Part shown: positions 5,476-54,006 of the stretch, piece after piece | Numbering within the stretch: the first letter of the stretch is position 1 | Layout: each line of letters begins with the position of its first letter | From: Streptomyces pactum | GTDB taxonomy: Bacteria; Actinomycetota; Actinomycetes; Streptomycetales; Streptomycetaceae | NCBI RefSeq assembly: GCF_002005225.1 | Contig: NZ_CP019724.1 | Location: 2,232,001 to 2,296,000 of the forward strand | Reading direction: 5' to 3' | Length of the DNA: 64,000 nucleotides | Translations under genes and position numbers: made by a program | The notes under the pieces: generated by a model | Seen by the model: the letters and a program-made list of their open reading frames with translations, nothing else | The model's database searches: none | Told to the model about the DNA's origin: nothing

Positions 5476-6456
5476 TCACGGATTGCCGGGCGGTGGGGCC
5501 CCGAGATGCCGTGCCATCTTCGCCAGCAGTTCCTCCTCGGCGTCCCGGAGGAAGAAGTGGTCCCCGGCGATCTCCTCGATCGCGGCGGGCCCGCCGCTGT
5601 ACGCGCTCCACTGCTCCGTGACGTCCCGTCCGGCGTCCTCGTCCCCGCGTCCGTAGAACACGGAGACGGGGCAGTCGAGCGGTTCGGACGGGGGCGCCTT
5701 GTAGTGGTCGAGGATGGCGTAGTCGGCCCGGAGGATCGGGATGTACAGCTCCATCAGCTCCTCGTTCTCCAGGAGCTCCTCGGGGGTGCCCCGCAGCCGC
5801 CGCAGCCGCTCGGTGAACTCCTCGTCCGACAGGTCGTACGTGGTCTCGGCGGGCGTGGCCAGATGGGGCGCCGGACAGCCGGAGACCAGCAGGCGCCGGG
5901 GCGGCGGAAAACCCAGCGCGCGCAGGTGGCGGACGAGTTCGAAGGCGAGGACGCCTCCGAAGCTGTGGCCGAAGACGGCGTACGGGGCGCGGCGTGCCTC
6001 CTCCATCCCCCCCGCGAGGTCGTCGAGCAGGGGCTCCAGTTCGGACTTGGCGCGCTCGGGCCAGCGGGCTCCGCGCCCCGGCAGCTCCAGCGGGATGACG
6101 GCCACCGACGACGGCAGCCGGGTCTTCCACGGTTCGTACATGCGGGCGGAACTGCCGGCGTACGGGAGGCAGTACAGGTTCAGGACGGGTACGCCGGCCG
6201 CCTCGGGCGGAGCGGGGCGCGGCTGCCGCGGCGGTCGCAGTCCGAGGAGTCCGCGGACGGTGGGGTGGTCGTGGATGTGCCGCAGGGGCACGCGGTGGCC
6301 GAGCGCCGCGATCAGACGGCGCTGGAGTTCCACCGCGAGGAGGGAGTTGCCCCCGGCCTCGAAGAAGTCCTCGTCGTCCGAGACGGGGTCGGACTCCAGC
6401 GTCTCTCGCCAGGCCCTCACTACGGCTTCCCGGCGTGCTTCGGTTTCCGTGTTCAT
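5476..6456 (-). CDS. Carrier protein-thioesterase didomain (T-TE, type II TE-like)
   Basis: 326 residues. Residues about 8-75 form a carrier domain with GGNSL as the phosphopantetheine Ser site. Residues about 95-326 form an alpha/beta-hydrolase with LPYAGSS, LPGRG, nucleophile motif GHSFGG and the terminal GDHFF His motif. These motifs are those of editing (type II, GrsT-like) thioesterases rather than of terminal TE domains, so the fusion to a carrier domain is notable: it may release the chain after transfer to this T, or clear a stalled carrier. The ATG at 6456 is taken because carrier homology starts directly after it; the open frame upstream is a shadow of the hydrolase gene. The gene follows that hydrolase by 83 bases. 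Confidence 0.88.
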   Translation of the reverse strand: MNTETEARREAVVRAWRETLESDPVSDDEDFFEAGGNSLLAVELQRRLIAALGHRVPLRHIHDHPTVRGLLGLRPPRQPRPAPPEAAGVPVLNLYCLPYAGSSARMYEPWKTRLPSSVAVIPLELPGRGARWPERAKSELEPLLDDLAGGMEEARRAPYAVFGHSFGGVLAFELVRHLRALGFPPPRRLLVSGCPAPHLATPAETTYDLSDEEFTERLRRLRGTPEELLENEELMELYIPILRADYAILDHYKAPPSEPLDCPVSVFYGRGDEDAGRDVTEQWSAYSGGPAAIEEIAGDHFFLRDAEEELLAKMARHLGAPPPGNP

Positions 6457-6539: not shown

Positions 6540-8411
6540 TCACACCTGGGGCGCTGTGGGCAGGACCACCCTCGACGGGTGGCCTGGGCCCCGGTGGACC
6601 CGCACGACCGGCACGGGGTCCCGCTGAGGCACCTGGGCGTTGTCCCGGTCGCAGCAGGTGACGCTGATCCGCAGTCGGCGGCCGGCCGCGAAGACGTTCG
6701 ACGTGGGGTGCATGTCGGCGACGAGTTCCACCGGTTCGCCCGGGAGCGGCGCGACCGAGTCCGCCGTCCCCGGGTGGTAGGGCAGGCCCATGGCGTCGTG
6801 CAGGGGTGTGTCCAGGCCGCGGTGGGATGCGCGGATCACCGCCTCGCTCACGTAGTGGGAGTCGCCCTTCTCGTCCACCTCCTCCAGGTAGACGAAGAAC
6901 TCGCCGTCCGGGTGGGTGGACGTGACCCACAGGTGGACCAGGGGGTGGCCGGTGACCTCGAGGTCCTCGGTGAGCACCGGCGAGGTGTAGGTCAGGGCCT
7001 TGCGGTCGTTCGCCGTGAGGTCGTAGCGGAACCCGGCGCCGTACCCGTCGGACCAGCGGGAGGTCGTCCCGGTGGTGGCGGAGTAGTCGACCTCGTAGGC
7101 GTCGGCGCCGTCGGCGGGGCCGGGCCCGGTTCCGTCGTCGGCGAGCAGCAGTCCGTCGTTGGCGGAGGGGACGGTGCCGGTCGGGCCCTCGTGGAAGTGG
7201 AACGTCCGGGGCCGCACGTGGGGCGGCGGCCAGTGGCTCGCGGTGCGCCACTCGGTGCCCGGCGGGGCGCTCATGGTGAAGTACCTGACCGGTCGTTCGT
7301 CCATGACTCCGTTGTCGACGCCCTTGAGCCAGTGGTCGTACCAGCGCAAGTGCTCACGGGCGATGTCCTCGTCCGACCACTTGTTGTGGCTCCAGGGGCC
7401 GATGACGAGACGCTGGGGGTTGGCCAGGTTGCGGTACCAGAGCGTCGTGTCGCGGACCCAGATGTCGTACCAGCCGGTCAGGTGGCACACGGGGACGCCG
7501 GAGGCGCTGATGTCGGCCAGCGCGGCGGCGGGGTTGACGTGCTCGTACGGTGTGATGCCCGTCGCCTCGTCCGTGCTGTCACGGAACCGCAGCGTCGCGG
7601 CCTGCTCGAACACCCGGGCGTTGAGCCGGTGTCCGGCCACGACACCGGCGACGTCCGCATCCTTCGAATGGGCGGCGCCCGCCTCCGTGTCGAGCCTGCG
7701 GACGGTCTCGCCCCAGTTGCGTGCGAAGTCGTCCCGGAAGACTCCGCCGGGGCGCAGGAACGCGTAGAGGTCGAACATCGCCATCTGCGGGACGATCGCC
7801 GCCAGGTGCGGTGGCGCCGTACCGGCGGCGAGCAGTTGGCTGATCCCCGAGTACGACATGCCGAACATGCCGACGCGTCCGGTGGACCAGGGCTGCTCGG
7901 CCAGCCATTCGGTCACCGTGTGGGCGTCCCGGGCCTCCTGGGGGTCGAACTCGACGGGCCGGGTGCCCTCCGACGCGCCGCCGCCGCGCACGTCGACCAC
8001 GCCGACCACGTAACCGTTGCGCAGGAGTTCCCGGAGCCAGGGCTGGCTGTCCAGTTTGGTCAGCACGCCGCCGCTGACGTGCTCGGCCCTGCGGTAGCGC
8101 TCGTGGCACCAGACAACCGGCAAGGGCTCCTGGACCACCACACCCTCACGTTTGGGACGGTACAGATCGGCGGCCAGGCGCACCCCGTCGGTCATGGTGA
8201 TCCGTACGGTGCTGCGCTCGGCCAGGTCGGCCTCGGCGAGGAACGCGACGATCTCCGCCTTGCGCGCGAGGAGTTTCTCGCGCAGGGCGGGGGTCACGGC
8301 GCCGGCCGGGGCGTCGAAGCGCAGCTTCCCGTGCTCGGCCCACAGGGCTATGCCCTGCGCGCGCAGGGACAGGAGGAGGTCGACGACGCTTTCGGACACG
8401 TGCGGGGTCAC
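6540..8411 (-). CDS. CocE/NonD-family hydrolase with N-terminal TubC-type docking domain
   Basis: 623 residues. Residues about 5-60 match the TubC N-terminal docking fold (LLLSLRAQGIALWAEHGKL, then APAGAVTPALREKL and RKAEIVAFL), normally found at the start of NRPS subunits. The rest is an S15/CocE-NonD serine hydrolase: nucleophile elbow GMSYSG, a GWYDIWV segment, WSHN, and a C-terminal PepX-type beta-sandwich. A substrate carried on, or just released from, the assembly line is likely; the reaction could be deacylation or peptide-bond hydrolysis. The GTG start at 8411 overlaps the NRPS stop by four bases (GTGA), which fixes the start and keeps the docking domain in frame. A paralogue with the same architecture is at 44030-45946. 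Confidence 0.88.
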   Translation of the reverse strand: MTPHVSESVVDLLLSLRAQGIALWAEHGKLRFDAPAGAVTPALREKLLARKAEIVAFLAEADLAERSTVRITMTDGVRLAADLYRPKREGVVVQEPLPVVWCHERYRRAEHVSGGVLTKLDSQPWLRELLRNGYVVGVVDVRGGGASEGTRPVEFDPQEARDAHTVTEWLAEQPWSTGRVGMFGMSYSGISQLLAAGTAPPHLAAIVPQMAMFDLYAFLRPGGVFRDDFARNWGETVRRLDTEAGAAHSKDADVAGVVAGHRLNARVFEQAATLRFRDSTDEATGITPYEHVNPAAALADISASGVPVCHLTGWYDIWVRDTTLWYRNLANPQRLVIGPWSHNKWSDEDIAREHLRWYDHWLKGVDNGVMDERPVRYFTMSAPPGTEWRTASHWPPPHVRPRTFHFHEGPTGTVPSANDGLLLADDGTGPGPADGADAYEVDYSATTGTTSRWSDGYGAGFRYDLTANDRKALTYTSPVLTEDLEVTGHPLVHLWVTSTHPDGEFFVYLEEVDEKGDSHYVSEAVIRASHRGLDTPLHDAMGLPYHPGTADSVAPLPGEPVELVADMHPTSNVFAAGRRLRISVTCCDRDNAQVPQRDPVPVVRVHRGPGHPSRVVLPTAPQV

Positions 8412-11400
8412 AGCTCGCCCAGCTCGCGCGCGCCGGTCGTGTCGACGGCCGTCTCCCGGGACCGGAGGGTCCAGCGCAGTGTGTCGATCCGGGCGGCGAG
8501 GCCCGCGACTGTCGGCGTGTCGACGACGGCGCGCACCGGGATCTCCAGGTCCTGGGACCGGCGCAGTCGTTCCACGACGGCCAGCAGGGTGAGCGAGTCG
8601 CCGCCCAGTTCGAAGAAGGTCGTGTTCACGTCGACCACGTCGAGCTTCAGCACCTCGCTCCACACGGCGGCGACGGCGTGCTCCGTCTCGGTGCTCGGCG
8701 GGACCACCACGACCTCGGCCGGTGGCTGGTCGGTGGGCCGGGGCAGCCGGGCCCGGTCCACCTTGCCGGTGGCCGAGGTGGGCATCGTGTCGAGCCGGAC
8801 GAGGAGGGCGGGCTGCATGACCGCGGGCAGCTTGGGCGCCAGGTACGAGCGCAGCTCCGGATCGTCCGGGCCGCCTTCCGGGGCCGGTACGAGATAGGCG
8901 ACGAGCCGCTCGCCGGGCTCCAGGACCACCACCGCGTCCGCCACGCCGGGGTGGCCGCGCAGCACGGACTCGATCTCCTCCAGCTCGACCCGCACGCCGC
9001 GGATCTTGACCTGGTGATCGGTGCGGCCGAGGAACTCCATCTCGCCGTCCGGCAGCCAGCGGACCATGTCGCCCGTCCGGTAGAGGCGGCGTCCTGGCCT
9101 CGCGGGGTCCGGGGCGAAGCGCTCGGCGGTCAGTTCGGGCCGGTTGCGGTAGCCGCGGGCGACGCCGTCCCCGCCGACCAGCAGCTCGCCGGGGACACCT
9201 ATGGGCTGCTGGTTGCCCCAGCGGTCCACGACGGCGCAGGAGGCGTTGGAGACGAGCTCGCCCAGCGGCATGGAGGCGCGGTCCCGCGAAGCGTGGCCCA
9301 TGCGCCCGGCGAGGGCCACGCCGGCGGTCTCCGTGGGGCCGTACTCGTTCCAGATCAGGCACCCGGGCGACACGACCTCGCGGATGCGGGCGACCAGGTC
9401 TCCGCTGAGGTTCTCGCCTCCCAGGGAGACGTGGCGCAGGGTCGGCAGGGTGACTCCGGTGCCCGTGAGCGCCCGCATCTGGGTGGGCGTGAGGTACAGC
9501 ATGTGGATGTCGTGATCGTCGACGAACCGGGCCGTGGCCTCGGGGTCCGCCCGTACCTCCAGCGGCAGCATGACCAGGCGGGCACCGGCCGTCAGCGCGT
9601 GGAACATCTGCTCCACCGACCAGTCGAAGTGGTACGAGAGGTTGTGCACGACGCGGGTGCCCTCGCCGATGGGCCGGACGTCCTGTGCCCACCGCATCCA
9701 GGGGGTGACGGCCGTGTGGGGCAGTCCGACGCCCTTGGGCCTGCCCGTCGTCCCGGAGGTGTACATGAGGTACACGAGCTGTGCCGGGTCCACCGCCGGG
9801 TCGGGGCGCGCCCCGGCTGGGGCCGGTGCGGTGCCGCCGTCCGCGTCGACGGGGCCCTCGGCCTCCGCGTGCACCACGTCGACGCCGTCGAGCGCGCCGC
9901 CGGGCAGCAGGGGGTGCAGCTCGGCGGTCGTCACGAGCACGCGCAGCCCGCTGTCCTCGACCATGTGGGTCATGCGGTCCTCGGGGGCGAGCGGGTCGAT
10001 CGGCACGTAGGCCGCACCCGCCTTGAGGATGCCGAGGATGCCGGTCAGGAGGTCCACCGAGGGTGCCGCGCAGAGTCCCACGAGGTGGTCCGTGCTGACG
10101 CCGCGTTCCGCGAGCGCGGCGGCCAGCAGATCCGCGCGCCGGTCCAGTTCGCGGTAGGTGACCTCCGTGTCGCCGCTCTCGACGGCCACCGCGTCCGGAG
10201 TCCTGCGCGCCTGCTCCTCGAACATGTGGTGGAGGAACGTGTCCGTCGGGTACGGCCCGCAGCGGGCCGCCGACCAGGATTCGATCTGCCGCTGCTCGTC
10301 CGCGGGGAGAACCCGCAGGCCGGAGAGCCGCTTCGTCGGCGCGGCGACCGCGTCGGCGGCGAGCGTGCGGAAGTGGTCAAGGATCCGCCACGCCTTGTCC
10401 TCGACGAAGAGGTCGGTGTTGTACTCCAGCGCCACCCTGTAGGTGGTCTCGGTCTCGGTCACCGAGAACACCAGGTCGAACTTGGCTGCGTTGCGGTCCA
10501 GGTCGACGTCGGTGACCGTGAGGCCGGGCAGCTCCGGTGACGGCATCTCCTGCTGGAAGGCGAGCATGACCCGGAACAGCGACTGCAGCCCGGAGCGGTC
10601 CGTGGCCACGGCGTTCACCACCCGCTCGAACGGGACGTCCTGATGCGCGTAGGCGCCCAGCGTCCGCTCGCGTACCTCCCCGAGCAGCCCGAGCACCGTG
10701 GGGTCGCCGGAGAGGTCGCAGCGTACGGCGAGGGTGTTCAGGAAGTAGCCGAGCATGCCTTCCAGCTCGGGCAGGTCGCGGTTGGCGCTGGGGGTGCCCA
10801 CCACGATGTCCGTCTGGCCGCTGTACCGGTGCAGCAGCGCGGCGAGGAGGGTCAGCACGGTCATGAACGGCGTGGCGTCGTTCTGGCGGGCCAGCTCCCG
10901 GACGCGGCGCGAGACGGCCCGCGGCAGCTCCACGGCGACGGTCGCGCCCCGGCCGCTCGGGGAGCCCTGCGGGGTGAGGTCCGTGGGCAGGTCGAGTACG
11001 GGAAGGGGGCCGCGCAGGCGCTCCTTCCAGTACTCCAGTTGCGCGTCGAACGCGGCGTCGCCGACGGTGCGCCGCTGCCAGGCCGCGAAGTCGGCGTACT
11101 GGAGGGCCGGCGGGTCGGCCGCTGGGACGGTGCCCTTGGCGGCCGACGCGTACAGCTCCAGCAGTTCCGCCACGGCGAGCTCGAAGGAGTGGATGTCGGT
11201 GATGGCGTGGTGCATGTTGACCAGCAGGACGTGCCACTGGTCCGCCAGCCGGTACAGCTCCGCCCTGAGCAGTGGCCCCCGCTCGACGTCGAACGGGCGC
11301 TGCGCCGACGCGCCGATCCGGTCGACGAGGACCTGCTCCCGCTGCTCCTCCGGCTCGCCCTGGAGGTCGATGATCTCCAGCGGCAGTTCCATGGCGGCCT

Positions 11401-11941
11401 CGACGACCTGGTGGGGCACGCCGCCGACGGCGCGGATGGTCGTGCGGAACGGCTCGTGGCGGTCGACCAGCGTCCGGAGGGCCAGCCGCAGTGCCGCGAC
11501 GTCGAGGTCCCCCTCGATCTCGACGGCGGCGGGGACGTTGTACCGGGAGCTGGGTCCCAGGATGTGCTCCTCCACCCACAGGCGCTGCTGGGCGAAGGAG
11601 GCCGGCGCCTGGAAGGTCCCGTCGGTCCGCTCCGCGAACGCCGGGACGGACGGGCCGGTGAGCGGCGCGTCGTCCCCGCGCAGGTCCTCGATCCTGGCCG
11701 CCAGTTCGGCGGCCGTCTGGCTCTCGAAGAGCGCGCTGAGCGGGATGCGGATGCCCAGTTCCTCACGGAGCCGGCCGACCATCCGGGCGCCCTGGAGCGA
11801 GTTGCCGCCGAGGGCGAAGAAGTTCGCGTCCGGGTCCGGGGTGTCGATGCGCAGCACGGACGCCCAGACGGAGGTCACGGTGTCCGTGACGGAAGGGGTG
11901 TGCGTGTCGCCCTGCGGGGCGGTCCCGTACTGCGAGGTCAT
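8408..11941 (-). CDS. NRPS, T-C-A-T
   Basis: 1177 residues: T1 about 15-80 (GGNSL), C about 105-540 (MHHAITD, so HHxxxD kept), A about 560-1040 (YTSGTTGRPKG, YGPTE, GDMVRW, GKVDR) and T2 about 1065-1130 (GGDSL). Reading pocket positions by eye against GrsA gives D-W-E-Y-S-G-E-G-V-(K), which I do not recognise, so the substrate is open. The protein starts with a T domain, while the preceding PKS ends in a C domain; T1 therefore completes a module split between two proteins and needs aminoacyl loading in trans. The start (ATG 11941) overlaps the thioesterase stop (ATGA). Confidence 0.93.
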   Translation of the reverse strand: MTSQYGTAPQGDTHTPSVTDTVTSVWASVLRIDTPDPDANFFALGGNSLQGARMVGRLREELGIRIPLSALFESQTAAELAARIEDLRGDDAPLTGPSVPAFAERTDGTFQAPASFAQQRLWVEEHILGPSSRYNVPAAVEIEGDLDVAALRLALRTLVDRHEPFRTTIRAVGGVPHQVVEAAMELPLEIIDLQGEPEEQREQVLVDRIGASAQRPFDVERGPLLRAELYRLADQWHVLLVNMHHAITDIHSFELAVAELLELYASAAKGTVPAADPPALQYADFAAWQRRTVGDAAFDAQLEYWKERLRGPLPVLDLPTDLTPQGSPSGRGATVAVELPRAVSRRVRELARQNDATPFMTVLTLLAALLHRYSGQTDIVVGTPSANRDLPELEGMLGYFLNTLAVRCDLSGDPTVLGLLGEVRERTLGAYAHQDVPFERVVNAVATDRSGLQSLFRVMLAFQQEMPSPELPGLTVTDVDLDRNAAKFDLVFSVTETETTYRVALEYNTDLFVEDKAWRILDHFRTLAADAVAAPTKRLSGLRVLPADEQRQIESWSAARCGPYPTDTFLHHMFEEQARRTPDAVAVESGDTEVTYRELDRRADLLAAALAERGVSTDHLVGLCAAPSVDLLTGILGILKAGAAYVPIDPLAPEDRMTHMVEDSGLRVLVTTAELHPLLPGGALDGVDVVHAEAEGPVDADGGTAPAPAGARPDPAVDPAQLVYLMYTSGTTGRPKGVGLPHTAVTPWMRWAQDVRPIGEGTRVVHNLSYHFDWSVEQMFHALTAGARLVMLPLEVRADPEATARFVDDHDIHMLYLTPTQMRALTGTGVTLPTLRHVSLGGENLSGDLVARIREVVSPGCLIWNEYGPTETAGVALAGRMGHASRDRASMPLGELVSNASCAVVDRWGNQQPIGVPGELLVGGDGVARGYRNRPELTAERFAPDPARPGRRLYRTGDMVRWLPDGEMEFLGRTDHQVKIRGVRVELEEIESVLRGHPGVADAVVVLEPGERLVAYLVPAPEGGPDDPELRSYLAPKLPAVMQPALLVRLDTMPTSATGKVDRARLPRPTDQPPAEVVVVPPSTETEHAVAAVWSEVLKLDVVDVNTTFFELGGDSLTLLAVVERLRRSQDLEIPVRAVVDTPTVAGLAARIDTLRWTLRSRETAVDTTGARELGEL

Positions 11942-12705: not shown

Positions 12706-12917
12706 CGGGTTTTCTCGTTCTCCATCTTCAGGCGGAGGCTCAGCGGACGCATGTCGGTCCACACCTCCTTGATGTGGGCCAGGCAGGCGTCCTTCGGGCC
12801 CTCGTGACCGGCGTGCTTCCAGCCTCCGGGAACCTCGCGGCCCAGCGGCCAGATCGAGTACTGCTCCTCGTGGTTGACCACCACGGCGTACTGGGCTTCT
12901 TCCTGCCGCTCGTCCAT
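12702..12917 (-). CDS. MbtH-like protein
   Basis: 71 residues, typical MbtH length. The family core is visible: [22 protein letters not shown], and [18 protein letters not shown]. MbtH proteins bind and activate or stabilise NRPS adenylation domains; the neighbour T-C-A-T is the obvious partner, though it may serve several A domains of the locus. It is the first gene after the PKS-C protein, 75 bases downstream, with a small hairpin in that gap. Confidence 0.96.
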
Positions 12918-12941
12918 GGACCTCTTCCTTCTCTGATGAGC

Positions 12942-12963
12942 GGGTCCGCCGGTTGCCGGACCC
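12942..12963 (-). other. Intergenic hairpin between the PKS gene and the MbtH gene
   Basis: A perfect seven-base inverted repeat (GGGTCCG and CGGACCC) with an eight-base loop lies about 30 bases after the PKS stop. It has no T-tract. It may damp transcription or stabilise a transcript end inside the operon. Confidence 0.4.
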
Positions 12964-12992
12964 GGTTGCGGCCCCGGGCCGCCGTTCCCCTG

Positions 12993-15900
12993 TCAGGCGC
13001 CCGGGGCCCGGGTGGACCGCGGGGCGCCCAGGCGGCGTCGTCCCCTGGGTGCGACGCCGCCTGCCCGCAGGGCCCGCCGCATGGGTCCGGCCAGGGCCGC
13101 CAGCGTCGTCCCCGGTTCGGCCGTCACCTCGCGCAGCGCGGCAAGGAAGGCCGCCCGCACCTCGAGGGCCTCCGACTCGGTCAGCCGCAGGGAGTTGTAG
13201 GTGAGCCGCATGCTCAGACCGTCCTCGCCCGGCTTGCCGTACAGGCAGATGTCGAGCTGCGAGGTCTGGTTGGCGGGTGGCAGGAAGTCCGTGAACTGGA
13301 ACGCGGTGGAGAAGACCGGGTTCCGGCCGATCCGGGGCGTGCCGTCGGCGGGCGCCACCTGCTCGGCGATCAGCGTGAACGGGTAGCGGCTGTGGGCGTA
13401 GGCGCCGACGCTCTTGCGCTGGGCACGCCGGACCAGTTCCTCGAACGTGTCGGTGTCGCAGAGCGCCAGGCGTACGGCGAGCGGGTTGACGAACATGCCC
13501 ATCTGGTTGCCCATGCTCTTGCTGTCCCGCCCGGAGAACGGCACGCAGATCACCATGTCGTCGTCCGACCCGATGCCCCGCAGCGCCGCGGCGTACGCGC
13601 TGAGGAGGAGGACGTGCACGGTGACGTCCCACTTCCCGGCGAGCGCCGCCACGGCTTCGGACAGGTCCGGGTCGACCGTGAAGTCCACGGTCTCGTTGGA
13701 CACTTCGGCGCCGGGCGCGTCGTAGTCACCGATGTGCAGCCGGGGCAGCGGGCCGGCCAGCTCGCCCAGCCAGTAGGCCTCGGCAGCCGGGCGCTCGGGA
13801 CCGGCCAGCCACGCGAACCGGCCGCGGATCAGCTCCTCGTACGTCGATTCCAGCGGCTCCGGCGACGGCTCCCGGCCCTGGGCGAGCGCCTCGTACGTCT
13901 CCAGCAGCTCCCGCAGGAAGATCCCGATGCCGGTGCCGTCGGAGATGAGGTGGTGCATGGTGTAGTGCACGCAGTGGTGTTCGGAGCCGAGCCGGTACAG
14001 CGCGGCGCGCAGCGGCGGGGTGCCCAGGTCGTCGAAGGGGACGGCGCTGTCCGCGCGGATCAGCCGCTCGGCCTCGGCCTCCGGGTCGGGGTGCGCGCTC
14101 AGGTCGATCAGCGGGACGTCGAGGTCGAAAGCGGGCAGGACCCGTTGGCGGGGCCCGTCCGCGGTGTCCCGGAACACGAGGCGGAGCGCCTGGTGCCGGT
14201 CGATCAGGTACGCGACGGCCCTGCGGAAGACCTCAGGGTCGACGGCGCGGTGCACGTGCGTCCACACCGGGAGGTTGAGTTCGGCGCGGCCCTCCCCCAA
14301 CTGGTGCTGCACCCACATGCCGCTCTGGGCGTTCCAGAGGCCGAACCAAGCCGGGTCGGTCTCGTCCGCGGCCGCCCGGCCCGAATCGGTCGCGGTGGTC
14401 GTGGTGGGCTCGGTGCCCGGGGTCGTCACCGAGTCCGGGACCGCGGCGGGGTCCGGGTCCTGCGCCTGGTCGGCCGCCTCGTCGTCGGCGGTCAGGTGCC
14501 GGGCGAGGTCAGCGACCGTCGGGTGGGCGAACAGGTCGGCGATCGACGTCTTCACGTCGAGGGCCTCCTGCAGGTTGTTCGACAGGCGCAGGGCCAGCAG
14601 CGAGTCGCCTCCGAGGTCGAGGAAGGTGGCGGACACGTCGATCTCGCGGATGCCGAACTCGGCGGCCCACAGCCTGCCGAGGGTCTCCTCCATCGGGCTG
14701 TACGCGCCGTCGGGCCGCCCCAGCAGTGTCACGTCCGGGACGGATGCCCGGGACCCGGCGGCGGCCCGGGTGGCGGACGCCGCCGACCGGGCGGACACGG
14801 CCCGCCGGATCGGCTCGCCCAGGCGGATGGGCGAGGCCGCCATACGGGCCCGCAGCACGGCCGGGTCCAGCACGGCCAGCGCGTCGTGATTGATCTCCCC
14901 CACGATCACCTGCCCGTGGTTCGACCGGACGGCGGCGTGGAAGCTCGCCAGCGCGTCCTCGATCTCGACGGACCGGAAGAAGCCCTGGTCACGCTGGACG
15001 CCGTGGTCGGCGGCCATGCCGGTGCCCAGCCAGTCGGTCCAGTTCAGGGTGATCGTGCGCAGCCCTCGCTGTCCGCGCCAGGCCGCGTATGCGTCGAGGA
15101 AGAGGTTGGCCGCCGTGTAGTCGCCCTGGCCCGGTGAGCCGAACAGGGCGGTGGTCGAGCTGAACATCACCATCAGCTCGGGCGGGTCGTCGGCGGTCAC
15201 CTCGTCCAGCACCATCGCGCCCATGACCTTCGGGGCCAGGGTGGCCCGGTAGGTGTCGGGCGTCTTGTTCATCAGGAAGCCGTCGCCCGCGGTGCCCGCC
15301 GCGTGGATCAGCCAGGTGACGCGGCCGAGGTCGCGGCGGACGGTCGCGAGGACGCGTGCCATGTCGTCGTGGTCGGAGACGTCGCCCGCGCAGACGAGGA
15401 CGCGGGCGCCGTGGGACTCCATCTCCTGGATCAGGCGGATCCGCCCGGCCTGTCCGGCCGGCCCGTCGCGCAGCACGTCGGGCCACTGCTCGCGGGGCGG
15501 CAGTCCGCTCCTGCCGACCAGCGCGATCCTCGCTCCGGGCCGGGCCGCGCCGATGGACCGGGCGACCTCCAGGCCGAGTCCGCCGAGGCCACCGGTGATC
15601 AGGTGGACGCCGTCCGGTACCGCCGGAGTGTCCTCCGGTTCGGGGCCCAGGTCCGCTTCGACGAGTTCGAGGACGTAGCGGCCTTCGGAGCGCAGGGCGA
15701 CCTGCCCGGCCGGGTCCGTCCCGAGGATCTCCCGGGCGAGCGTGCCGGGCGGGACGCCGGCGGCCGTGTCGACGCACCGGCAGCGGACGTCGGGGTGCTC
15801 CTGGCCGATGACCTTCGCCAGCCCGAACAGCGCGGAGTGGGCGGGGACGACGTAGGGCTCGTCGCCCGTGACGGTCTCGACGTGCCCCGCGACCACGGTG

Positions 15901-18900
15901 AGCCGGCGCGGGCCGGTGCTCTGCCTGCCGAGGGTCTGGGCCAGGCTCAGCAGGGCCATGACACCACTGTCCAGGAGGCGTTCCTGAGCGTCTCGGCCGG
16001 GGCTGCCCGCCTCGTCCTCGCTCGCCACGAACACGGTCTCCGGCGGCAGCGGCTCCGTCCAGGTGGTCCAGTCGGTGTCGGCGCCGGTCACGTCGACGGT
16101 CACGTCGGCGTCCCGCAGCTCGGCGACGACAGCCGCGCGCCGGGGAGAGTCGGCTCCGACCACCAGAACGCGGTCGACCGGCCGCCGTGCGGCACCCGCC
16201 GCGCCGGCGGGGTCACCGGCCGCCTCGGTGCGGGCCGCGGGCACCCAGCGCAGGATGTGGTGTGCCGAGGCCCCGCGGGCGTTGTGGACGGTTCGCCGGG
16301 GGTCGTGGACACGCTTGGCCGTGAAGCCTTTGACGTCGAGGACGACGGCACCGTCGGGGGCGCAGACCAGGACGTCGACCTTGCGGATCTCGTCGCTCTG
16401 CGGGAAGTCCGGGTCGGGCTGGACGAAGCTGACGCACTGGGCGGGCATGGGCCCGTGCACGGTGAGGTGGTCGTAGGCCAGCGGCAGGTAGAAGTCGTGC
16501 CCGGACGCGTCGGCGGCGCCGTCGTCGCCTTGGAGCATCGCCCAGCGGTGGAACCCGGTCGCCAGATCGAGCAGCGCGGGGTGGAGCGCGAAGGCACCGG
16601 TCTCCTCGTGGTAACGCTCCGGCAGGTTCAGGTGCCCGAGCGCGGCCCGCACGCCGACGTCCACCGAGCGCAGGCTGTCCTGCCAGCGACCGCCGAAGTC
16701 CATGACCCGGTGCTCGGCCTGCAGGGTGCCGACGTCCACGGTGGCGAGCCGGCAGCGGGCGGCGAGGGCGGGCAGGTCGGCGTGGCGCGGCGGCCGGGGC
16801 CCCGCCGAGAGCCTCCCGCGCACGTGTACGGTCCACCGCCGCCCCTCGGGCGCTGCCGGGTCCTGGCTGACGACCTTGAACGCGGCGCCGTCATCGCCGT
16901 CGGAGCGCACGATCGTGTGCGCGACCCGCGGCTGCCGCGCCGTGACCAGAAGGGGGACCTGGAACTCGACGTCGGACAGGACCGTGACCTGCTCGCCGAG
17001 GTAATCCGTGCCCGCGGCGCGCGCCATCTCCAGATACGTGGTGCCCGGCACGATGGCCTCCGAGAGCATCTTGTGCTCGCTCAGCACCCAGTGGCGTTCC
17101 AGGTCGAAGGAGGTGCGGAATACCGCTTCGTCCACCGTCCGCACCAGCATCTCGTCCAGGAGCGGGTGGGGCCCCGGCGTCAGCGGCGCGCGGGGGGCCG
17201 ATACGGGCTCCAGCCAGTGGCGCGTGCGCTCGAACGGGTAGGTCGGCAGCGCCACGCGGCGGGGCCGCTCGTCGGCCTGGTAAGCGGTCCAGTCGGGGGT
17301 GATGCCGTGGAGCCAGAGCAGGCCCAGGGCGCGCTGGGCGGTTTCCAGCGGCCCGCGGCTGTCCTGCCGGTGCGGCAGCGTGGCGGTCACCAGGCGCGGC
17401 GGCTGAGCGCCCGCGAGGTTCCGTGCGGCGAGGCTGCGCAGCGTCTGGCCCGGGCCGACCTCGAGGAAGGCCACGTCCGGGTCGGCCGCCAGGACCTCGA
17501 CGCCCCGCGCGAACTCGACCGTCGCGAGGACGTGGCGGCCCCAGTAGGCGGGGTCGGTGGCCTCCCGGGTGGTGATCCAGTCGCCGGTCACGTTGGAGAG
17601 GAACGGCACCGCCGGCTCGTGCCGGGGCACTTGGGCGACGGCGCGGGTGAACTCCTCGACCATCGGGGCCATCAGTGCGCAGTGGAAGGCGTGCGGGGTG
17701 GCGACCGGCCGGGTCGCGATCCCCTGCCGCTCGGCGAGGGCCGCGAACGCGGCGATCGCCTCGTGCGGGCCCGACACGACGCAGTCGGACGGGCCGTTGT
17801 GCGCCGCCAGGGAGAGTCCGGCGGGCAGGAGCCGTTCCACGGTGGCCCGGTCGGTGGCGACGCTGAGCATCGCGCCGCCCGCCTGCCGCTCCATGAGCCT
17901 GCCGCGCAGGGCGACCAGCCGCAGCGCGTCGGCGAGTTCGAAGACCCCCGCGCGGCAGGCGGCCACGTATTCGCCGAGGCTGTGCCCGATCATGGCGGAC
18001 GGGGTGACGCCCCAGGCGTTCCACAGCTCGGCCAGCGCGTGTTCCAGAGTGAAGAGGGCCGGCTGGGCGAGCGCGGTGGTGCCGAGCCGGCGGGCCGCTT
18101 CCTCGTCGTCCGGCGCGGCGAGCAGCAGGTCGCGGACGTCCGTGCCGAGTTCGGGGCGCAGCAGTTCGGCGCACCGGTCGACGGCCGCGCGGAACACCGC
18201 CTCGTGAGCGTAGAGCCCGGCCGCCATTCCCGGGTACGCGGAGCCCTGCCCGGTGAAGAGGAACGCGACGGAGGGCGAGGCGGCGTCGGCGGTGCCGGTC
18301 GTCATGCTCCCGCCGTCGCGCATTTCCAGGGCGCGTGCCGCGCTGCGCGGGTCCGGGGCGACGACGACGCGGCGGTGGCGGAACTCCTGGCGGCCCTGCG
18401 CCAGGGTGAAGGCGACGTCGGCGAGCGACAGGTCCTCCTGCCGCAGTCGCGCGGCCAGCCGGTCGGAGACCCGCTCCAGGGCCTGCGGGGTGCGGGCCGA
18501 CAGGACGAGTACCTGGGAGGGGCGGGCGGGGCCGGGCGGGGCGGGTTCCGGTGCCTCTTCGAGGACGACATGGGCGTTGGTGCCGCCGAATCCGAAGGCG
18601 CTCACCCCGGCTCGTCGGGGGCCGCCGTCGGGGGTGTTCCAGGGGGCGAGCTCCCGCTGGACGTAGAACGGCGTGCTGGGGAAGTCGATGGCCGGGTTGT
18701 CCTGGCGGAAGTGGACGGTGGGAGGCAGCGTGCGGTTTCCCAGGGCGAGCGTGGTCTTGAGGAGCCCGGCGATTCCAGCGGCGGCGTCGAGGTGGCCGAC
18801 GTTCGACTTCACCGAGCCGATCGCGCAGCGGCCGACGCGGTCCGAGCCGGCGCCGAAGGCCCTGGTCAGCGCCTCGATCTCGATGGAGTCGCCGATCCGG

Positions 18901-19868
18901 GTGCCGCTGCCGTGAGCCTCCACGTAGCTGATGTCGCCGGCCTCGACACCGGCGATCTCCAGGGCCTCCAGTACGACGGCGCTCTGCCCTGCCACACCGG
19001 GCGCGGTGAAACTCGCCTTCGCGGAGCCGTCGTTGTTGACGGCGGTGCCCTTGATGACCGCGTACACCGTGTCGTTGGCGCGCAGTGCGTCGTCGAGGCG
19101 CTTGAGTACGACGATGCCCGCGCCGTTGTTGAAGACGGTGCCCCGGCTGTCGGCGTCGAAGGGACGGCAGTGCCCGTCGGGGGACAGGATGCCGCTCTCC
19201 TGGTACCGGTACCCCTTGCCCGGCGGCACCTTGAACGCCACTCCGCCGGCGATCGCCATGCCGCACTCGTGGTTGAGCAGACTCTGGCAGGCGAGGTGGA
19301 CCGCCACCAGGGAGCTGGAGCAGGCGGTGTGCACAGGGATGCTCGGGCCGTGCAGGTCGAGTTTGTAGGAGACCCGTGTGGTGAGGAAGCCGAGCTCGTT
19401 GCCGAGCCCCACGTTGGAGGCGCCGATGGAGGCGCCGCTCTCCAGGTTGGCGAAGACGTGCGGGAGGTAGGCACTGGTCCCCGCGCCGCCGAAGACACCG
19501 ACGCTGTCCCCGATCCGCCCGGGGCTGTAGCCGGAGTGCTCCAGTGCCTCCCAGGCCAGTTCGAGGAAGATCCGGTGCTGCGGGTCCATGATGGTGGCTT
19601 CGCGGGGGGTGTACCCGAAGAACTCCGCGTCGAAGAGGTCGACGCCCTCCGCACGGGCCCCGGCCTTGACGTAGCCGGGGCGGGAGAACTCCGCCTCGGG
19701 GACACCGACGGCGAGCAGTTCGGCGTCGTCGAAGAAGGATACGGACTCGACGCCGTCCCGGAGGTTCGACCAGAACCGGTCCAGGTCGGGTGCGCCCGGG
19801 AATCGTCCGGCCATGCCGATGACGGCGATGTCGGTGCCCAGCTCCTGCGAGTCGTCGGCCTCTTCCAC
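12993..19868 (-). CDS. Hybrid PKS-NRPS, KS-AT-DH-KR-ACP-C
   Basis: 2291 residues. KS about 8-430 (TACSSSL, EAHGSGT, KSNVGHLD all present); AT about 530-840 (GHSLGEY, HAFH, the malonyl-type signature); DH about 905-1190, whose first motif is HKMLSEAIVP with Ser where HxxxGxxxxP expects Gly; KR about 1415-1660 (GGLGGLGLEVA; Ser and YTAAN catalytic residues); ACP about 1720-1790 (GGDSL); C about 1830-2270 (HHLISDG). It adds a C2 unit and ends in a C domain that must use an amino acid on the next protein's T domain. The GTG at 19868 follows GGGGGAG and precedes KS homology; frames extending further upstream run through the leader. Transcription probably starts at promoter B, about 259 nt upstream. 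It resembles the PKS at 47219-52648. Confidence 0.95.
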   Translation of the reverse strand: MEEADDSQELGTDIAVIGMAGRFPGAPDLDRFWSNLRDGVESVSFFDDAELLAVGVPEAEFSRPGYVKAGARAEGVDLFDAEFFGYTPREATIMDPQHRIFLELAWEALEHSGYSPGRIGDSVGVFGGAGTSAYLPHVFANLESGASIGASNVGLGNELGFLTTRVSYKLDLHGPSIPVHTACSSSLVAVHLACQSLLNHECGMAIAGGVAFKVPPGKGYRYQESGILSPDGHCRPFDADSRGTVFNNGAGIVVLKRLDDALRANDTVYAVIKGTAVNNDGSAKASFTAPGVAGQSAVVLEALEIAGVEAGDISYVEAHGSGTRIGDSIEIEALTRAFGAGSDRVGRCAIGSVKSNVGHLDAAAGIAGLLKTTLALGNRTLPPTVHFRQDNPAIDFPSTPFYVQRELAPWNTPDGGPRRAGVSAFGFGGTNAHVVLEEAPEPAPPGPARPSQVLVLSARTPQALERVSDRLAARLRQEDLSLADVAFTLAQGRQEFRHRRVVVAPDPRSAARALEMRDGGSMTTGTADAASPSVAFLFTGQGSAYPGMAAGLYAHEAVFRAAVDRCAELLRPELGTDVRDLLLAAPDDEEAARRLGTTALAQPALFTLEHALAELWNAWGVTPSAMIGHSLGEYVAACRAGVFELADALRLVALRGRLMERQAGGAMLSVATDRATVERLLPAGLSLAAHNGPSDCVVSGPHEAIAAFAALAERQGIATRPVATPHAFHCALMAPMVEEFTRAVAQVPRHEPAVPFLSNVTGDWITTREATDPAYWGRHVLATVEFARGVEVLAADPDVAFLEVGPGQTLRSLAARNLAGAQPPRLVTATLPHRQDSRGPLETAQRALGLLWLHGITPDWTAYQADERPRRVALPTYPFERTRHWLEPVSAPRAPLTPGPHPLLDEMLVRTVDEAVFRTSFDLERHWVLSEHKMLSEAIVPGTTYLEMARAAGTDYLGEQVTVLSDVEFQVPLLVTARQPRVAHTIVRSDGDDGAAFKVVSQDPAAPEGRRWTVHVRGRLSAGPRPPRHADLPALAARCRLATVDVGTLQAEHRVMDFGGRWQDSLRSVDVGVRAALGHLNLPERYHEETGAFALHPALLDLATGFHRWAMLQGDDGAADASGHDFYLPLAYDHLTVHGPMPAQCVSFVQPDPDFPQSDEIRKVDVLVCAPDGAVVLDVKGFTAKRVHDPRRTVHNARGASAHHILRWVPAARTEAAGDPAGAAGAARRPVDRVLVVGADSPRRAAVVAELRDADVTVDVTGADTDWTTWTEPLPPETVFVASEDEAGSPGRDAQERLLDSGVMALLSLAQTLGRQSTGPRRLTVVAGHVETVTGDEPYVVPAHSALFGLAKVIGQEHPDVRCRCVDTAAGVPPGTLAREILGTDPAGQVALRSEGRYVLELVEADLGPEPEDTPAVPDGVHLITGGLGGLGLEVARSIGAARPGARIALVGRSGLPPREQWPDVLRDGPAGQAGRIRLIQEMESHGARVLVCAGDVSDHDDMARVLATVRRDLGRVTWLIHAAGTAGDGFLMNKTPDTYRATLAPKVMGAMVLDEVTADDPPELMVMFSSTTALFGSPGQGDYTAANLFLDAYAAWRGQRGLRTITLNWTDWLGTGMAADHGVQRDQGFFRSVEIEDALASFHAAVRSNHGQVIVGEINHDALAVLDPAVLRARMAASPIRLGEPIRRAVSARSAASATRAAAGSRASVPDVTLLGRPDGAYSPMEETLGRLWAAEFGIREIDVSATFLDLGGDSLLALRLSNNLQEALDVKTSIADLFAHPTVADLARHLTADDEAADQAQDPDPAAVPDSVTTPGTEPTTTTATDSGRAAADETDPAWFGLWNAQSGMWVQHQLGEGRAELNLPVWTHVHRAVDPEVFRRAVAYLIDRHQALRLVFRDTADGPRQRVLPAFDLDVPLIDLSAHPDPEAEAERLIRADSAVPFDDLGTPPLRAALYRLGSEHHCVHYTMHHLISDGTGIGIFLRELLETYEALAQGREPSPEPLESTYEELIRGRFAWLAGPERPAAEAYWLGELAGPLPRLHIGDYDAPGAEVSNETVDFTVDPDLSEAVAALAGKWDVTVHVLLLSAYAAALRGIGSDDDMVICVPFSGRDSKSMGNQMGMFVNPLAVRLALCDTDTFEELVRRAQRKSVGAYAHSRYPFTLIAEQVAPADGTPRIGRNPVFSTAFQFTDFLPPANQTSQLDICLYGKPGEDGLSMRLTYNSLRLTESEALEVRAAFLAALREVTAEPGTTLAALAGPMRRALRAGGVAPRGRRRLGAPRSTRAPGA

Positions 19869-20126
19869 AACTCCCCCAATCCGTACTACCGCGTGGTGTT
19901 CTGACTGACGCTGCCCGCGCGCGATCGCGCACCGCGGCGACGGGCACGCGGCGGTGTCCGTCGTGGTTCCGGGAGCCGCCCCTGCCGGGCCGGGCGCGCG
20001 ACAGGCCGGCGCGGACCGGGCGGGGCGGGGCGGGAAGGAGACAACCATCCGGCAGGAGTCCCGGAAGAAGGCCGGGAGCCGGGTATGTCGGTCGCGCTGC
20101 GGGAACGTCGATACATTGCGGCAGCG

Positions 20127-37926: not shown

Positions 37927-38006
37927 CGAGGCTGGTCCTTCCCCCGTGATCGAGGTGTTGTCTGCGGTGGCCGGTTCTGCGGCCCGGGCGACGTACCGGT
38001 CGGTGG

Positions 38007-42779: not shown

Positions 42780-44033
42780 TCAGACCGCCCCGCCGTAGGC
42801 CCGGGCTCCCTCGCGCACGCGGTCGGGCCAGTCGGCGGAGTCGAGGCCGTACTGGCACAGGAAGGCGTAGACGAGCCGCTCGAGCCCGAACCCGACGCAC
42901 GCGCTGCGCGCCGCGCCCTGCGTGCCGTAGTCGATGCCGAAGCCGCGCCCGAACAGGTCGTCGTGGAAGTTGAAGGAGCCCACCGCGATGGTCCGCCCGG
43001 GTGCGACGGTGAGGCGCAGCTCGTACTTGAGCTCCAGCAACCGCTGCGACCAGATCCGCGCGGAGGTGTCGCCGCCGCCGAAGAACGGGTCGTTGCCCAC
43101 CTCGCAGAAGCCGCTCAGGCCGAGATCCTCCACGAACCCGAAGATCTTCCGCATGAACAGTTCGCGCGAGGCGAGGACGTCCTCGCGCGGCCCCATGAAG
43201 ACGATCTCGCGGATGGTGAAGTCCCACAGCCGTTCCATCGTCGTGGCGTAAGCCGCCTCGAAGCGGAAGGACTTGCCCTTGGCCGTGACGACGTGCACCC
43301 CGTCCGTGTCCAGCGTCCGCCCCCGGTACTGGTGGAACGTGTGGTAACACATGGTCGGCGGCAGGCAGTAGTCCACGTTGCGGCAGGCGTCGAGGACGGT
43401 GGAGTCGACGCCCGTCTCGGCATAGGACTTCTGGAAGCCCTGGTACACGTCGATGTCGTTGTGCAGCCGGGTCACGAACATCAGGTGCTGCGGGAACGAG
43501 GCGAAGTAGCCGGCCGTCGCAAGGGCCCCGGTGCTGATCAGCGTCGGGTAGCGGTACTCCGTCGGACTGAAGTCCTCGGCCAGGATCCGCTTCACCGCCC
43601 CGTCGAAGTACGCGAGCAGCGACAGCAGCGGCTCACCGACGGCGACCTGTCCCTCGCCCGCCTCGGTCACCGCGCCCGCCCGCGCGAGCAGTTCGAACGT
43701 CCCCTCCTCGACCACTCGCTCGTGCGGGGACGTCCACACCGACTTCGGCGGGGTCGTCCGCTGCCGGCGGACGTCACCGTCGACGACCCGGTTCACCTTC
43801 TCGGCGAGCTCCCCCGCAGGGAGCGGGGTGGCCGAGCGGAGGGTCACCCCGCGCACCTCGCCGTCGGCCGTGTCCAGTTCGTATCCCGTGATCTTCGAGG
43901 ACACGAAGAGGAGGCGGCGCTCGATCTCGGCGGCGAGCTCCCCGGCCACCGGGGTGTGCAGCTCGACCCGTGTACGGAACTCCCCGGTCCCCGCGCCCGT
44001 CGGCGCGGTGTCCTGTCGGGTGGTGTCGGTCAT
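42780..44033 (-). CDS. Class II aminoacyl-tRNA-synthetase-like amino acid:carrier-protein ligase
   Basis: 417 residues. The core resembles the catalytic domain of SerRS and the amino acid:[carrier protein] ligases: MCYHTF (zinc Cys), ERLWDFTIREIVFMG (motif 2 region), and SACVGFGLERL (second zinc Cys plus motif 3). There is no tRNA-binding coiled coil, so it should charge a carrier protein rather than tRNA. Together with the ACP at 46032-46280, the HADH and the acyl-CoA dehydrogenase, it fits the ZmaJ role: activate Ser, load the ACP, and feed aminomalonyl-ACP synthesis. Ser is inferred; Gly or Ala ligases are known in the family. The ATG overlaps the hydrolase stop (ATGA). Confidence 0.85.
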   Translation of the reverse strand: MTDTTRQDTAPTGAGTGEFRTRVELHTPVAGELAAEIERRLLFVSSKITGYELDTADGEVRGVTLRSATPLPAGELAEKVNRVVDGDVRRQRTTPPKSVWTSPHERVVEEGTFELLARAGAVTEAGEGQVAVGEPLLSLLAYFDGAVKRILAEDFSPTEYRYPTLISTGALATAGYFASFPQHLMFVTRLHNDIDVYQGFQKSYAETGVDSTVLDACRNVDYCLPPTMCYHTFHQYRGRTLDTDGVHVVTAKGKSFRFEAAYATTMERLWDFTIREIVFMGPREDVLASRELFMRKIFGFVEDLGLSGFCEVGNDPFFGGGDTSARIWSQRLLELKYELRLTVAPGRTIAVGSFNFHDDLFGRGFGIDYGTQGAARSACVGFGLERLVYAFLCQYGLDSADWPDRVREGARAYGGAV

Positions 44034-45946
44034 GTCTCTTGCTCCTGAGCGGCTGGGAGGACAGGGAGGCCGACGAAGGACGCGTGGGCGCCTCTCCGGT
44101 GGATCTGGACGACGGGCGGCGGGTGGTGCGCGGAGGTCTCGGCGTTGTCCCGGTCGCAGCAGGTGACGGCGATCCGGAGCCGGTGCCCCGGAGCGAACAC
44201 GTGGCTGATCGGGTGCAGGTCGAAGACCAGCGCCACCGGCTCCTCGGGCAGCGGTGAGCGGGTCCGCTCCGAGCACGGGTGGTACGGCAGCGAGAGGTTG
44301 TCGTACGGAGCGGGGCCCAGCGCCCGGTGGGAGGCGCGCATCACGCCCTCGGTGACGTAGTGGGAGACCCCTTCGGCGTCGACGTCCTCCAGGTAGACGA
44401 AGAAGTCGCCGTCCGGATGGGTCGACGTCACCCACAGTTCCGCGACCGGGTGCCCGGTCACCTCCCGTTCCCGTTCCAGCGGGGCCGTCGTGTAGGTGAG
44501 GGCCGTCCGGTCGTTGCCGTTCATCGGCTCGTAGCCGAACGGTCCGCCGTAGGCGTCGGTCCAGCGGGTCGCCGTGCCGGAGGTGGCCGTGTAGTCGACG
44601 ACGAGGTCGTCCACGCCTCCGAGCCGCGAGGGCGCCCGGTCCGTCAGCGTGCCGTCGTTGACGGAGGTCGCGGGCAGGTCCGGGCCGGGACCGAAGTACA
44701 TCCGCGTGGTACGGACCCCGGCGGGCGGCCACTGGTGCGTGGTGCGCCACTCCTCGCCGGGGGGCGCGTTGCGCCGGCGGTAGCGGATGGGCGGCTCGTC
44801 CATGACGCCGGTGTCGACGCCCTTGAGCCAGTGGTCGAACCAGCGCAGGTGCTCGGCCGCCAGGTCGACGCCCTCCCTGCCGTTGTGGGACCAGTCGCCC
44901 ACGAGGAGCTTGCGCGGCCCGGTGAGATTGGCGTGCCACAGGAACGCGTCCCGCACCCATGTGTCGTGCCAGCCGGTGAGCTGGTACACGGGAACGCCCG
45001 CGGCGGCGATCGCCGCGACGCGGGTGGAGGGGCTCTGCCGCGCGTACGGCGGCTCGTCGTCGCCCTCGCCCCGGCTGTCCCGGAAGGGCAGCGCAGCGGC
45101 CCTGGCGAAGACGTCCGTGTTGGCCCGGTGCTCCTCGGCGGCCGCGCGCACGGCCGCCGAGTCCTCCCGTACGGGCGCGGCCCCGGTCTCCGTGTCCAGC
45201 CGCCGCACCATCGCGCCCCAGTTCCGGATGAAGTCGTGCCGGAACGCGCCTCCGGGACGGAGGAACGAGTAGAGGTCGAAGAGCGCGACCTGCGGGAAGA
45301 TCGCCTTCAGGCTGGGCGGGGCGGTGCCGGCGGCGAGGAACTGGGTGATTCCGAGATAGGACTCGCCGTACATGCCGACGTTCCCGTCGCACCAGTCCCG
45401 CGCGGCGAGCCATTCCGTGATCTCGTAGGCGTCCCGGCTCTCCTCGGGGCCGAACTCCATGCCCCGCACGCCGCTTGAGGCGCCCGTGCCCCGGGCGTCC
45501 GCGGCGGCGATCACGTAGCCGTCGTCGAGGATCCGGCGCAGCCAGGGTCGGCTGTCGAGCTTGGTCCAGGTCAGGCCGTCCACCACGTCCGAGCGGTGGT
45601 AGCGGTCGTGGCACCAGAGGGCCGGCAGCGGCTCCTCGACCACCCGGCCGTCCCGCTTGGGACGGAGCACGTCCACGGCGATCCGGACGCCGTCGCGCAT
45701 CGTGACGTAGTGGGTGGAGGACTCGATGCCGTCGACGGCTTCGAGGTAGGCCAGGACGTCCGCCGACCGCTCCTCCAGCAGTGTCCGCAGCTCCTCGTCG
45801 ACTCCGCCCGGCGGCGTCTCGTGGTGCAGCCGGCCGCCGGCCGCCCACACGCGGACGTTCGAGGCCCGCAGCCGCAGCAGCAGAGGGACGACGGACGCGC
45901 CGGCCGCGCCGGGGCCCGGTACGGCGTCCTCGGTCCGCGCCGTCAT
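44030..45946 (-). CDS. CocE/NonD-family hydrolase with N-terminal TubC-type docking domain (paralogue 2)
   Basis: 638 residues. Residues about 18-70 carry the TubC-like docking fold (VVPLLLRLRASNVRVWAAG, then DEELRTLLEERSADVLAYL). It is preceded by about 17 extra residues and is less typical than paralogue 1, since the APAG(A/V)LTPEL stretch reads TPPGGVDEEL. The hydrolase has nucleophile elbow GESYLG, a GWHDTWV segment, DWSHNG and a PepX-type C-terminal sandwich. The two paralogues align over their whole length. It lies between the ACP, from which a strong hairpin separates it, and the ligase, to which it is coupled. A role on assembly-line intermediates is inferred. Confidence 0.85.
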   Translation of the reverse strand: MTARTEDAVPGPGAAGASVVPLLLRLRASNVRVWAAGGRLHHETPPGGVDEELRTLLEERSADVLAYLEAVDGIESSTHYVTMRDGVRIAVDVLRPKRDGRVVEEPLPALWCHDRYHRSDVVDGLTWTKLDSRPWLRRILDDGYVIAAADARGTGASSGVRGMEFGPEESRDAYEITEWLAARDWCDGNVGMYGESYLGITQFLAAGTAPPSLKAIFPQVALFDLYSFLRPGGAFRHDFIRNWGAMVRRLDTETGAAPVREDSAAVRAAAEEHRANTDVFARAAALPFRDSRGEGDDEPPYARQSPSTRVAAIAAAGVPVYQLTGWHDTWVRDAFLWHANLTGPRKLLVGDWSHNGREGVDLAAEHLRWFDHWLKGVDTGVMDEPPIRYRRRNAPPGEEWRTTHQWPPAGVRTTRMYFGPGPDLPATSVNDGTLTDRAPSRLGGVDDLVVDYTATSGTATRWTDAYGGPFGYEPMNGNDRTALTYTTAPLEREREVTGHPVAELWVTSTHPDGDFFVYLEDVDAEGVSHYVTEGVMRASHRALGPAPYDNLSLPYHPCSERTRSPLPEEPVALVFDLHPISHVFAPGHRLRIAVTCCDRDNAETSAHHPPPVVQIHRRGAHASFVGLPVLPAAQEQET

Positions 45947-53205: not shown

Positions 53206-54006
53206 ATGCACGGCAATGCGCCCACGCGCCCCTGGATCCACCGACTGTCGAAGACGAATCCGCCCGGAAGTATACGGCTGTTCTGTTTTCCTTATGCCGG
53301 TGGCGGCGCTTCCACATTCCGCGGTTGGGCCGAGCTGCTGCCGGACGAGATCGACGTCCACGCCATTCAGCCGCCGGGCCGCGAGGACCGGCTGTTCGAG
53401 GACCCGGTCGACACCTTGCAGGCGACTCTGGACGCCGTCGTCCCGGAGCTGCTGGAGTACTCCAAGGAGCCGTTTGCCCTGTTCGGACACAGTCTCGGGG
53501 CGATCGTCTGCTGGGAGGCAGCCCGCGTTCTGCGCGAGGAGCACAACCTTGAACCGGCCCGTGTGTTCCTCTCGGGATGCCGCGCCCTGCCCGCCGTGCA
53601 CGACGGCCGGCGGGACCTTCACACACTGCCCGAAGCGGAACTCATAGAGGAACTCCGGCTCATGAACGGAACACCGGAGGAGATTCTCCGGAACGCCGAC
53701 TTCATGCGGATGCTGCTGCCCGCCGTAAGGGCGGACTATGCGATGCTCTCACGCTATTCCTTTCTTCCGTGCAAGCCTCCTGGCGCACCGGTGACGGTAT
53801 TCGGCGGAGCGAGCGACCCGGGCGTGGGAATGAATCACCTCCAGCAGTGGTCCGAGTTGATCGAGGGAGAGCTCGACTCGGTGGTCCTGCCCGGCGACCA
53901 TTTCTTCCTGCATGCGTCGCGGGAGCCCCTTCTCGCGGAAATGGCGAAACGTCTCGTCGGGCCCGTTCAGGCGTCCGGGCGGGAGTCCTCACTCGGTTCG
54001 CTCTGA
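53206..54006 (+). CDS. Type II thioesterase (only intact plus-strand gene)
   Basis: 266 residues with GrsT-type motifs: FCFPYAGGGAS, QPPGRED, GHSLGA as nucleophile elbow, and GDHFFLH with the catalytic His. It probably edits carrier domains. ATG 53206 is preferred over the in-frame ATG 53173 because AGAGG lies six bases before it and nothing like a ribosome site precedes 53173. It diverges from the PKS operon and overlaps the convergent T-TE gene by 40 bases at its 3' end. Which assembly line it serves is open. Confidence 0.93.
   Translation: MHGNAPTRPWIHRLSKTNPPGSIRLFCFPYAGGGASTFRGWAELLPDEIDVHAIQPPGREDRLFEDPVDTLQATLDAVVPELLEYSKEPFALFGHSLGAIVCWEAARVLREEHNLEPARVFLSGCRALPAVHDGRRDLHTLPEAELIEELRLMNGTPEEILRNADFMRMLLPAVRADYAMLSRYSFLPCKPPGAPVTVFGGASDPGVGMNHLQQWSELIEGELDSVVLPGDHFFLHASREPLLAEMAKRLVGPVQASGRESSLGSL

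Follow-up and report, generated by a model that had tools for sequence, protein, structure and literature searches.

Two genes encoding a TubC_N docking domain joined to a CocE/NonD hydrolase were found in the window, by which we mean the whole stretch of 64,000 nucleotides that was analysed. The first of these (copy 1) lies at 6540..8411 on the minus strand, where the original prediction had placed it with the strand left unstated, and encodes a protein of 623 amino acids between a GTG start at 8411 and a stop at 6540. The start overlaps the stop of the upstream NRPS gene by GTGA, an overlap that had likewise been pointed out before. This upstream gene (8408..11941, minus) encodes a T-C-A-T NRPS subunit of 1177 amino acids as annotated with Pfam, and a KS-AT-DH-KR-T-C hybrid subunit (12993..20048, minus; Pfam) is encoded upstream of it. 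The protein encoded just downstream of copy 1 (5476..6456, minus; 326 amino acids) is composed of a T and a TE domain, the latter being closest to the type II enzymes RifR and 3qmw, which we take to be the type II enzyme RedJ.

The docking domain of copy 1 occupies residues 9-61 (8229..8387, minus) according to Pfam and the predicted fold, with K29-L-R-F-D33 as its beta-2 strand. The first sixty or so residues had earlier been proposed to adopt the TubC docking fold, and the TubC_N profile search that was run agrees with this, matching residues 9-60 with an E-value of 7.2e-18 and 64.9 bits against a Pfam cut-off of 26. The closest docking domains with a solved structure are those of AerJ (2.4e-07), Bamb_5915 (3.5e-07) and TubC (7.5e-07). 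The secondary structure of the N-terminus, which is a prediction only, runs H9-18, E22-26, E29-33, H41-49 and H51-61, and a structural re-alignment of the protein covered residues 57-622 and barely tested residues 1-56. The TubC_N profile, the predicted fold and the N-terminal location are features shared with TubC, Kj12ABC, EpoB, Bamb_5915 and AerJ.

The remainder of the protein (residues 64-621; 6549..8222, minus) was identified as a CocE/NonD serine hydrolase from profile matches and from alignment with CocE, and the assignment to the CocE superfamily made from the sequence at the outset holds. Pfam places Peptidase_S15 at residues 75-342 and PepX_C at 367-615, the NCBIfam profile CocE_NonD (TIGR00976) covers residues 72-621 (E 1.3e-109; 367.7 bits against a cut-off of 66.3), and cocaine esterase is matched at 9.4e-41. 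Residues Y106, S186, D316 and H342 align with Y44, S117, D259 and H287 of CocE, presumably the oxyanion tyrosine and the catalytic serine, aspartate and histidine. The whole fold, PepX_C and these four catalytic residues are common to copy 1 and the CocE/NonD hydrolases (cocaine esterase; TIGR00976). An identity as X-Pro dipeptidyl-peptidase (PRK05371) was rejected with 82 bits against a cut-off of 642. Like the type I and type II thioesterases of NRPS systems, copy 1 is an alpha/beta hydrolase beside a carrier domain, but it belongs to a different family and is ruled out as an NRPS thioesterase by the absence of PF00975 among the Pfam matches up to E 10.

Relatives of the fusion proteins

Copy 2 (44030..45946, minus; 638 amino acids) was recognised from Pfam and its predicted fold and is 55% identical to copy 1. 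Its TubC_N match is weaker, with 29.1 bits barely above the Pfam cut-off of 26, and the predicted fold opens with helix-strand-strand-helix-helix in the same order as in copy 1. A search of approximately 5.8 billion proteins gave 705 relatives at E 1e-20, and TubC_N is carried by 27 of the 120 relatives listed. Twenty-eight docking-type rows were obtained by adding copies 1 and 2 to these and removing the partial P0033, which was excluded from A1 and from both trees. The presence of TubC_N in 28/28 of them by Pfam scan lends no independent support as the rows were chosen for that domain. In a tree built from the hydrolase part only, the twenty-eight group together in a single clade (SH-aLRT 100), and none of the 60 plain rows included for comparison, out of 93 plain relatives, falls inside it. 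All twenty-eight keep the catalytic residues in the alignment.

The same gene with the identical four-base junction was found again in two further genomes (G067 and G1036). This recurrence, the single clade formed by the relatives, the TubC_N E-value of 7.2e-18 and the GTGA overlap rule out an artefact, and a frame error or a chance match to the docking domain is left with a vanishingly small probability. The TubC_N-CocE/NonD fusion is real, and copy 2 is also a real fusion. The two copies sit in two deep subclades of the hydrolase-only tree and are therefore old paralogues, which excludes a recent duplication as their origin.

A hydrophobic, export-like N-terminus (hydropathy cut of 1.6 over 19 residues) was observed in 69 of the 93 plain relatives, those with an N-terminus too short to judge being counted as having no such stretch, and in none of the 29 docking-type proteins, with P0008 lying on the cut. 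Copy 1 is thus unlike plain CocE/NonD hydrolases in that a docking domain replaces the hydrophobic N-terminus and in that its gene lies inside an NRPS-PKS cluster. In the simplest history, the ancestor would have been an exported hydrolase whose export signal was lost and which acquired a docking domain. The hydrolase itself is hardly changed in comparison to its plain relatives, with six clade-diagnostic columns at the 80% level.

A scan of genome contigs matched at least eighty loci, with no docking domain found by profile among the eighty listed. Whole-genome searches (E 1e-120; queries P0002, P0003, P0009 or P0010) located the cluster in the genome analysed here (G000), G067 and G1036 only, the overlapping draws yielding 2/392, 2/396, 2/394, 2/323, 1/247 and 2/241 with G000 counted in three of the six. 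The plasmid search gave a single match, at 32%, aligned from residue 61 onward.

The C-terminal tail of the adjacent NRPS

The T-C-A-T subunit ends in TTGARELGEL. Its last six residues, RELGEL (8411..8428, minus), are proposed from sequence conservation to be a short linear motif, and they are kept in both of the other genomes with the cluster. The tail pattern occurs in three of the 486 open frames of at least 60 amino acids in the window, the T-C-A-T NRPS being the only recognised gene among them; a search of the window with this pattern yielded no partner tail for copy 2. Twelve of the 120 NRPS homologues listed, our own included, have R-E-x-G-E-L at the C-terminus, and beyond these twelve no row among the 120 has a G-acid-hydrophobic ending. 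Positions R-6, E-5, G-3, E-2 and L-1 are invariant in the tailed proteins, as are G-8, W-21 and L-23, while the remaining linker positions vary, and the invariance of the tail in 12/12 holds down to approximately 51% identity.

This conservation bears on a role in self-protection or clearing, in which the enzyme would act on product already free in the cytoplasm, destroying or activating it, and the docking domain would be a remnant. As 69 of the 93 listed plain relatives look exported, they would act off the assembly line, which agrees with such a role. However, the five invariant residues of the presumed tail in all twelve tailed NRPSs and the docking clade devoid of any plain row (among the 60 of 93 used) make it very improbable.

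Every NRPS homologue seen with a TubC-CocE protein on its contig was found to be tailed (6/6, our own pair included). The five further pairs (P0168/P0007, P0181/P0011, P0183/P0010, P0216/P0012 and P0263/P0013) were deduced from contigs of equal size in the two protein lists; a species name is also common to three of the five, and the remaining two are listed with no species name. This pairing can miss cases, as it considers the longest contig alone for each row and 120 of the 705 relatives. Six of the twelve tailed NRPSs have no hydrolase pairing among the matches listed, which counts against docking. Twenty-three NRPS rows were examined closely, namely the 21 best together with P0216 and P0263, both picked for their contig size before their tails were known. 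In eleven of the twenty-three, RExGEL is absent and there is no matching TubC-CocE contig; ten of these end soon after the T domain and P0169 ends in ELQRAEI. The eleven untailed proteins form one clade (100/100), so the correlated loss of tail and hydrolase counts as one event. The other 97 of the 120 listed rows, many of them partial or longer proteins, contain no RExGEL tail.

Binding in the solved Kj12 complex involves no more than the five C-terminal residues of Kj12B, LRGEI (PMC6195595). K29 and D33 of copy 1 align with R24 and E28 of Kj12C in a weak alignment (E 0.26), and the beta-2 strand of the six paired hydrolases reads [KR]-L-R-[FY]-[DE], the same charge pattern as R24/E28 in Kj12C. 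At -5 and -4, Kj12B carries L and R but the RExGEL tail carries E and a variable residue, which leaves only G-E-hydrophobic in common between the tail and the solved complex; this also counts against docking. The charged beta-2 strand and a candidate partner tail with G-E-hydrophobic behind a carrier domain resemble the known beta-hairpin/SLiM pairs, whereas the CocE/NonD cargo and a tail of RExGEL rather than LRGEI set the present pair apart from them.

In the review section drawn on here (PMC9113145), the cargo reported behind beta-hairpin domains comprises C, E, Cy, TE and MT domains, reductases and halogenases, and a CocE/NonD hydrolase is not listed there. The initial statement that docking domains normally join NRPS subunits needs correcting in that this is not their only use. 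Docked tailoring or accessory enzymes and thioesterases are already known; our literature search, which lay mostly outside subscription journals, found no published report of CocE with a docking domain, and a docked CocE/NonD cargo appears to be new. It would add one more type to the enzymes that NRPS lines recruit by means of a portable docking domain, and hydrolase residues 1-63 together with the six-residue tail can be named as a specific, testable pair.

Covalent relatives and the proposed action of the hydrolase

A further search aimed at longer proteins yielded 43 matches, five of which contain a carrier domain. P0127, known from a single contig, is a CocE-C-A-T protein with a C-terminal TE match of 21.1 bits, below the cut-off of 26.4. 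P0130, P0132 and P0134, the last two from Micromonospora, are CocE-C-T proteins in which no A domain was found. P0124, which comes from one metagenome contig of 3,587 bases, reads TubC_N-T-CocE, an architecture that may be an assembly join. CocE-type hydrolases are also joined to non-NRPS domains such as a beta-lactamase (P0128) and an MFS transporter (P0129), so such fusions are not peculiar to NRPSs. In the tree that includes the covalent fusions, for which 51 chosen plain rows were used, P0127, P0130, P0132 and P0134 adjoin the docking clade with weak support (81). P0124 groups with the plain relatives apart from the docking clade, and this placement suggests a second recruitment, though from a single contig. 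The catalytic residues are intact in the four covalent proteins checked (P0124, P0127, P0130 and P0134). Given these docking and covalent forms, CocE hydrolases have several routes of attachment to NRPS carriers.

The sequences show two domains, catalytic residues that are all intact, a conserved tail that co-occurs with the hydrolase, and covalent NRPS-CocE fusions elsewhere, and from these features we infer that copy 1 is probably a carrier-directed serine hydrolase, one that physically docks via TubC_N on RExGEL, acts on the carrier-bound chain and cuts it by hydrolysis. The beta-hairpin docking domain would bind the RExGEL tail of the upstream T-C-A-T NRPS and would thereby hold the active site of the hydrolase next to the final carrier domain of that subunit, where Ser186, with His342, Asp316 and the oxyanion Tyr106, would hydrolyse an ester or amide of the bound chain. 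The original suggestion of a hydrolase recruited to the assembly line is supported to this extent by the candidate RELGEL tail next door and by the covalent fusions. On the other hand, a TE is encoded close by (5476-6456) and a second hydrolase is therefore not obviously needed, which counts against this reading. So do the single clade behind the joint loss of tail and hydrolase, the species name common to only three of the five deduced pairs, the lack of such a tail for copy 2 in the window and the CocE fusions to non-NRPS domains.

As to what such a docked hydrolase would do, trimming or de-acylation of a bound intermediate comes near to an even chance and is somewhat likelier than hydrolytic release of the finished chain. 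The hydrolase precedes a C domain in four of the five covalent proteins, and this order would favour the processing of an incoming chain over release. Release is the main rival, possible but unlikely; in it the docked hydrolase would stand in for a thioesterase and set the completed chain free from the last T of T-C-A-T. In its favour, no TE is present in the T-C-A-T subunit, whose C-terminus is the tail, the TE directly downstream is type-II-like, and for enacyloxin the same review section (PMC9113145) describes a chain-releasing C enzyme that is brought in trans to the carrier-bound chain by a beta-hairpin domain. The likeness to enacyloxin Bamb_5915 lies in a beta-hairpin domain that brings a catalytic domain in trans to the bound chain, the domain being a hydrolase here and a condensation domain there. 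Against release, the hydrolase of P0127 stands before C-A-T and not after T, and the C-terminal TE match of that protein is below threshold. Moreover, no hydrolase was seen with the eleven homologous subunits that lack RExGEL, so release is probably possible by other means, and PKS modules continue to the left of the window, so that the T in question may not be the last.

A third possibility, in which the chain would move from the last T to the serine and then to a different carrier, for instance the T of the T-TE protein, is improbable. The T-TE protein directly downstream stands alone, having no C or A domain, and a docking-T-CocE protein exists in P0124, but the enzyme is hardly altered from its plain relatives (the six diagnostic columns above), and the solved relatives listed are, docking-domain matches aside, named esterases, hydrolases and peptidases.

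Returning to hydrolysis of the carrier-bound chain, we tentatively propose, as a serious but not yet probable extension, that CocE/NonD might form a class of NRPS processing domain not described before, which was recruited on at least two occasions and takes an acyl or aminoacyl group off the carrier-bound chain mid-assembly in an on-line deprotection. The forms of recruitment would then be the docking fusion, the docking-T fusion and the direct CocE-C-A-T fusions. If the hydrolase does act on carrier-bound chains, it would need to be considered in product prediction for such clusters, and grafting of the tail could serve to transfer it to other lines.

The surrounding gene cluster

A second T-TE protein is encoded at 53967..55193 (minus). 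Its closest solved structures are T-TE chains of NRPSs (tyrocidine-type, surfactin and EntF), and it looks like a termination didomain. A 258-residue frame at 55034-55810 (minus), inside the cluster, has no Pfam match at E 0.01. The hybrid subunit ends in C and the next NRPS opens with T, forming a split module without an A domain (8408-20048, minus); the CocE-C-T proteins P0130, P0132 and P0134 likewise have no recognised A domain. The subunit at 31510-38424 (minus) contains three AMP-binding stretches, a match to a DIP2-type AMP domain, presumably FAAL-like, a C domain and two T domains, and a luciferase-like monooxygenase lies between its A-domain parts. An acyl-CoA dehydrogenase (38007-39401, minus), a small protein that appears carrier-like by eye (46032-46280, minus) and a 3-hydroxyacyl-CoA dehydrogenase (46315-47166, minus) together resemble what we take to be genes for an unusual malonyl-ACP extender unit.

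The cluster continues to the left of the window on the minus strand (L107:264-9466, L107:9526-10410 and L109:15859-18588) with two KS-AT-KR-T proteins, an A-FkbM methyltransferase-T protein and a PLP-dependent enzyme. Another NRPS cluster near 1.13 Mb of the same genome (L105, L106) contains two TubC_N proteins, and an upstream frame of 4009 residues in that cluster ends in SETEVLTL.
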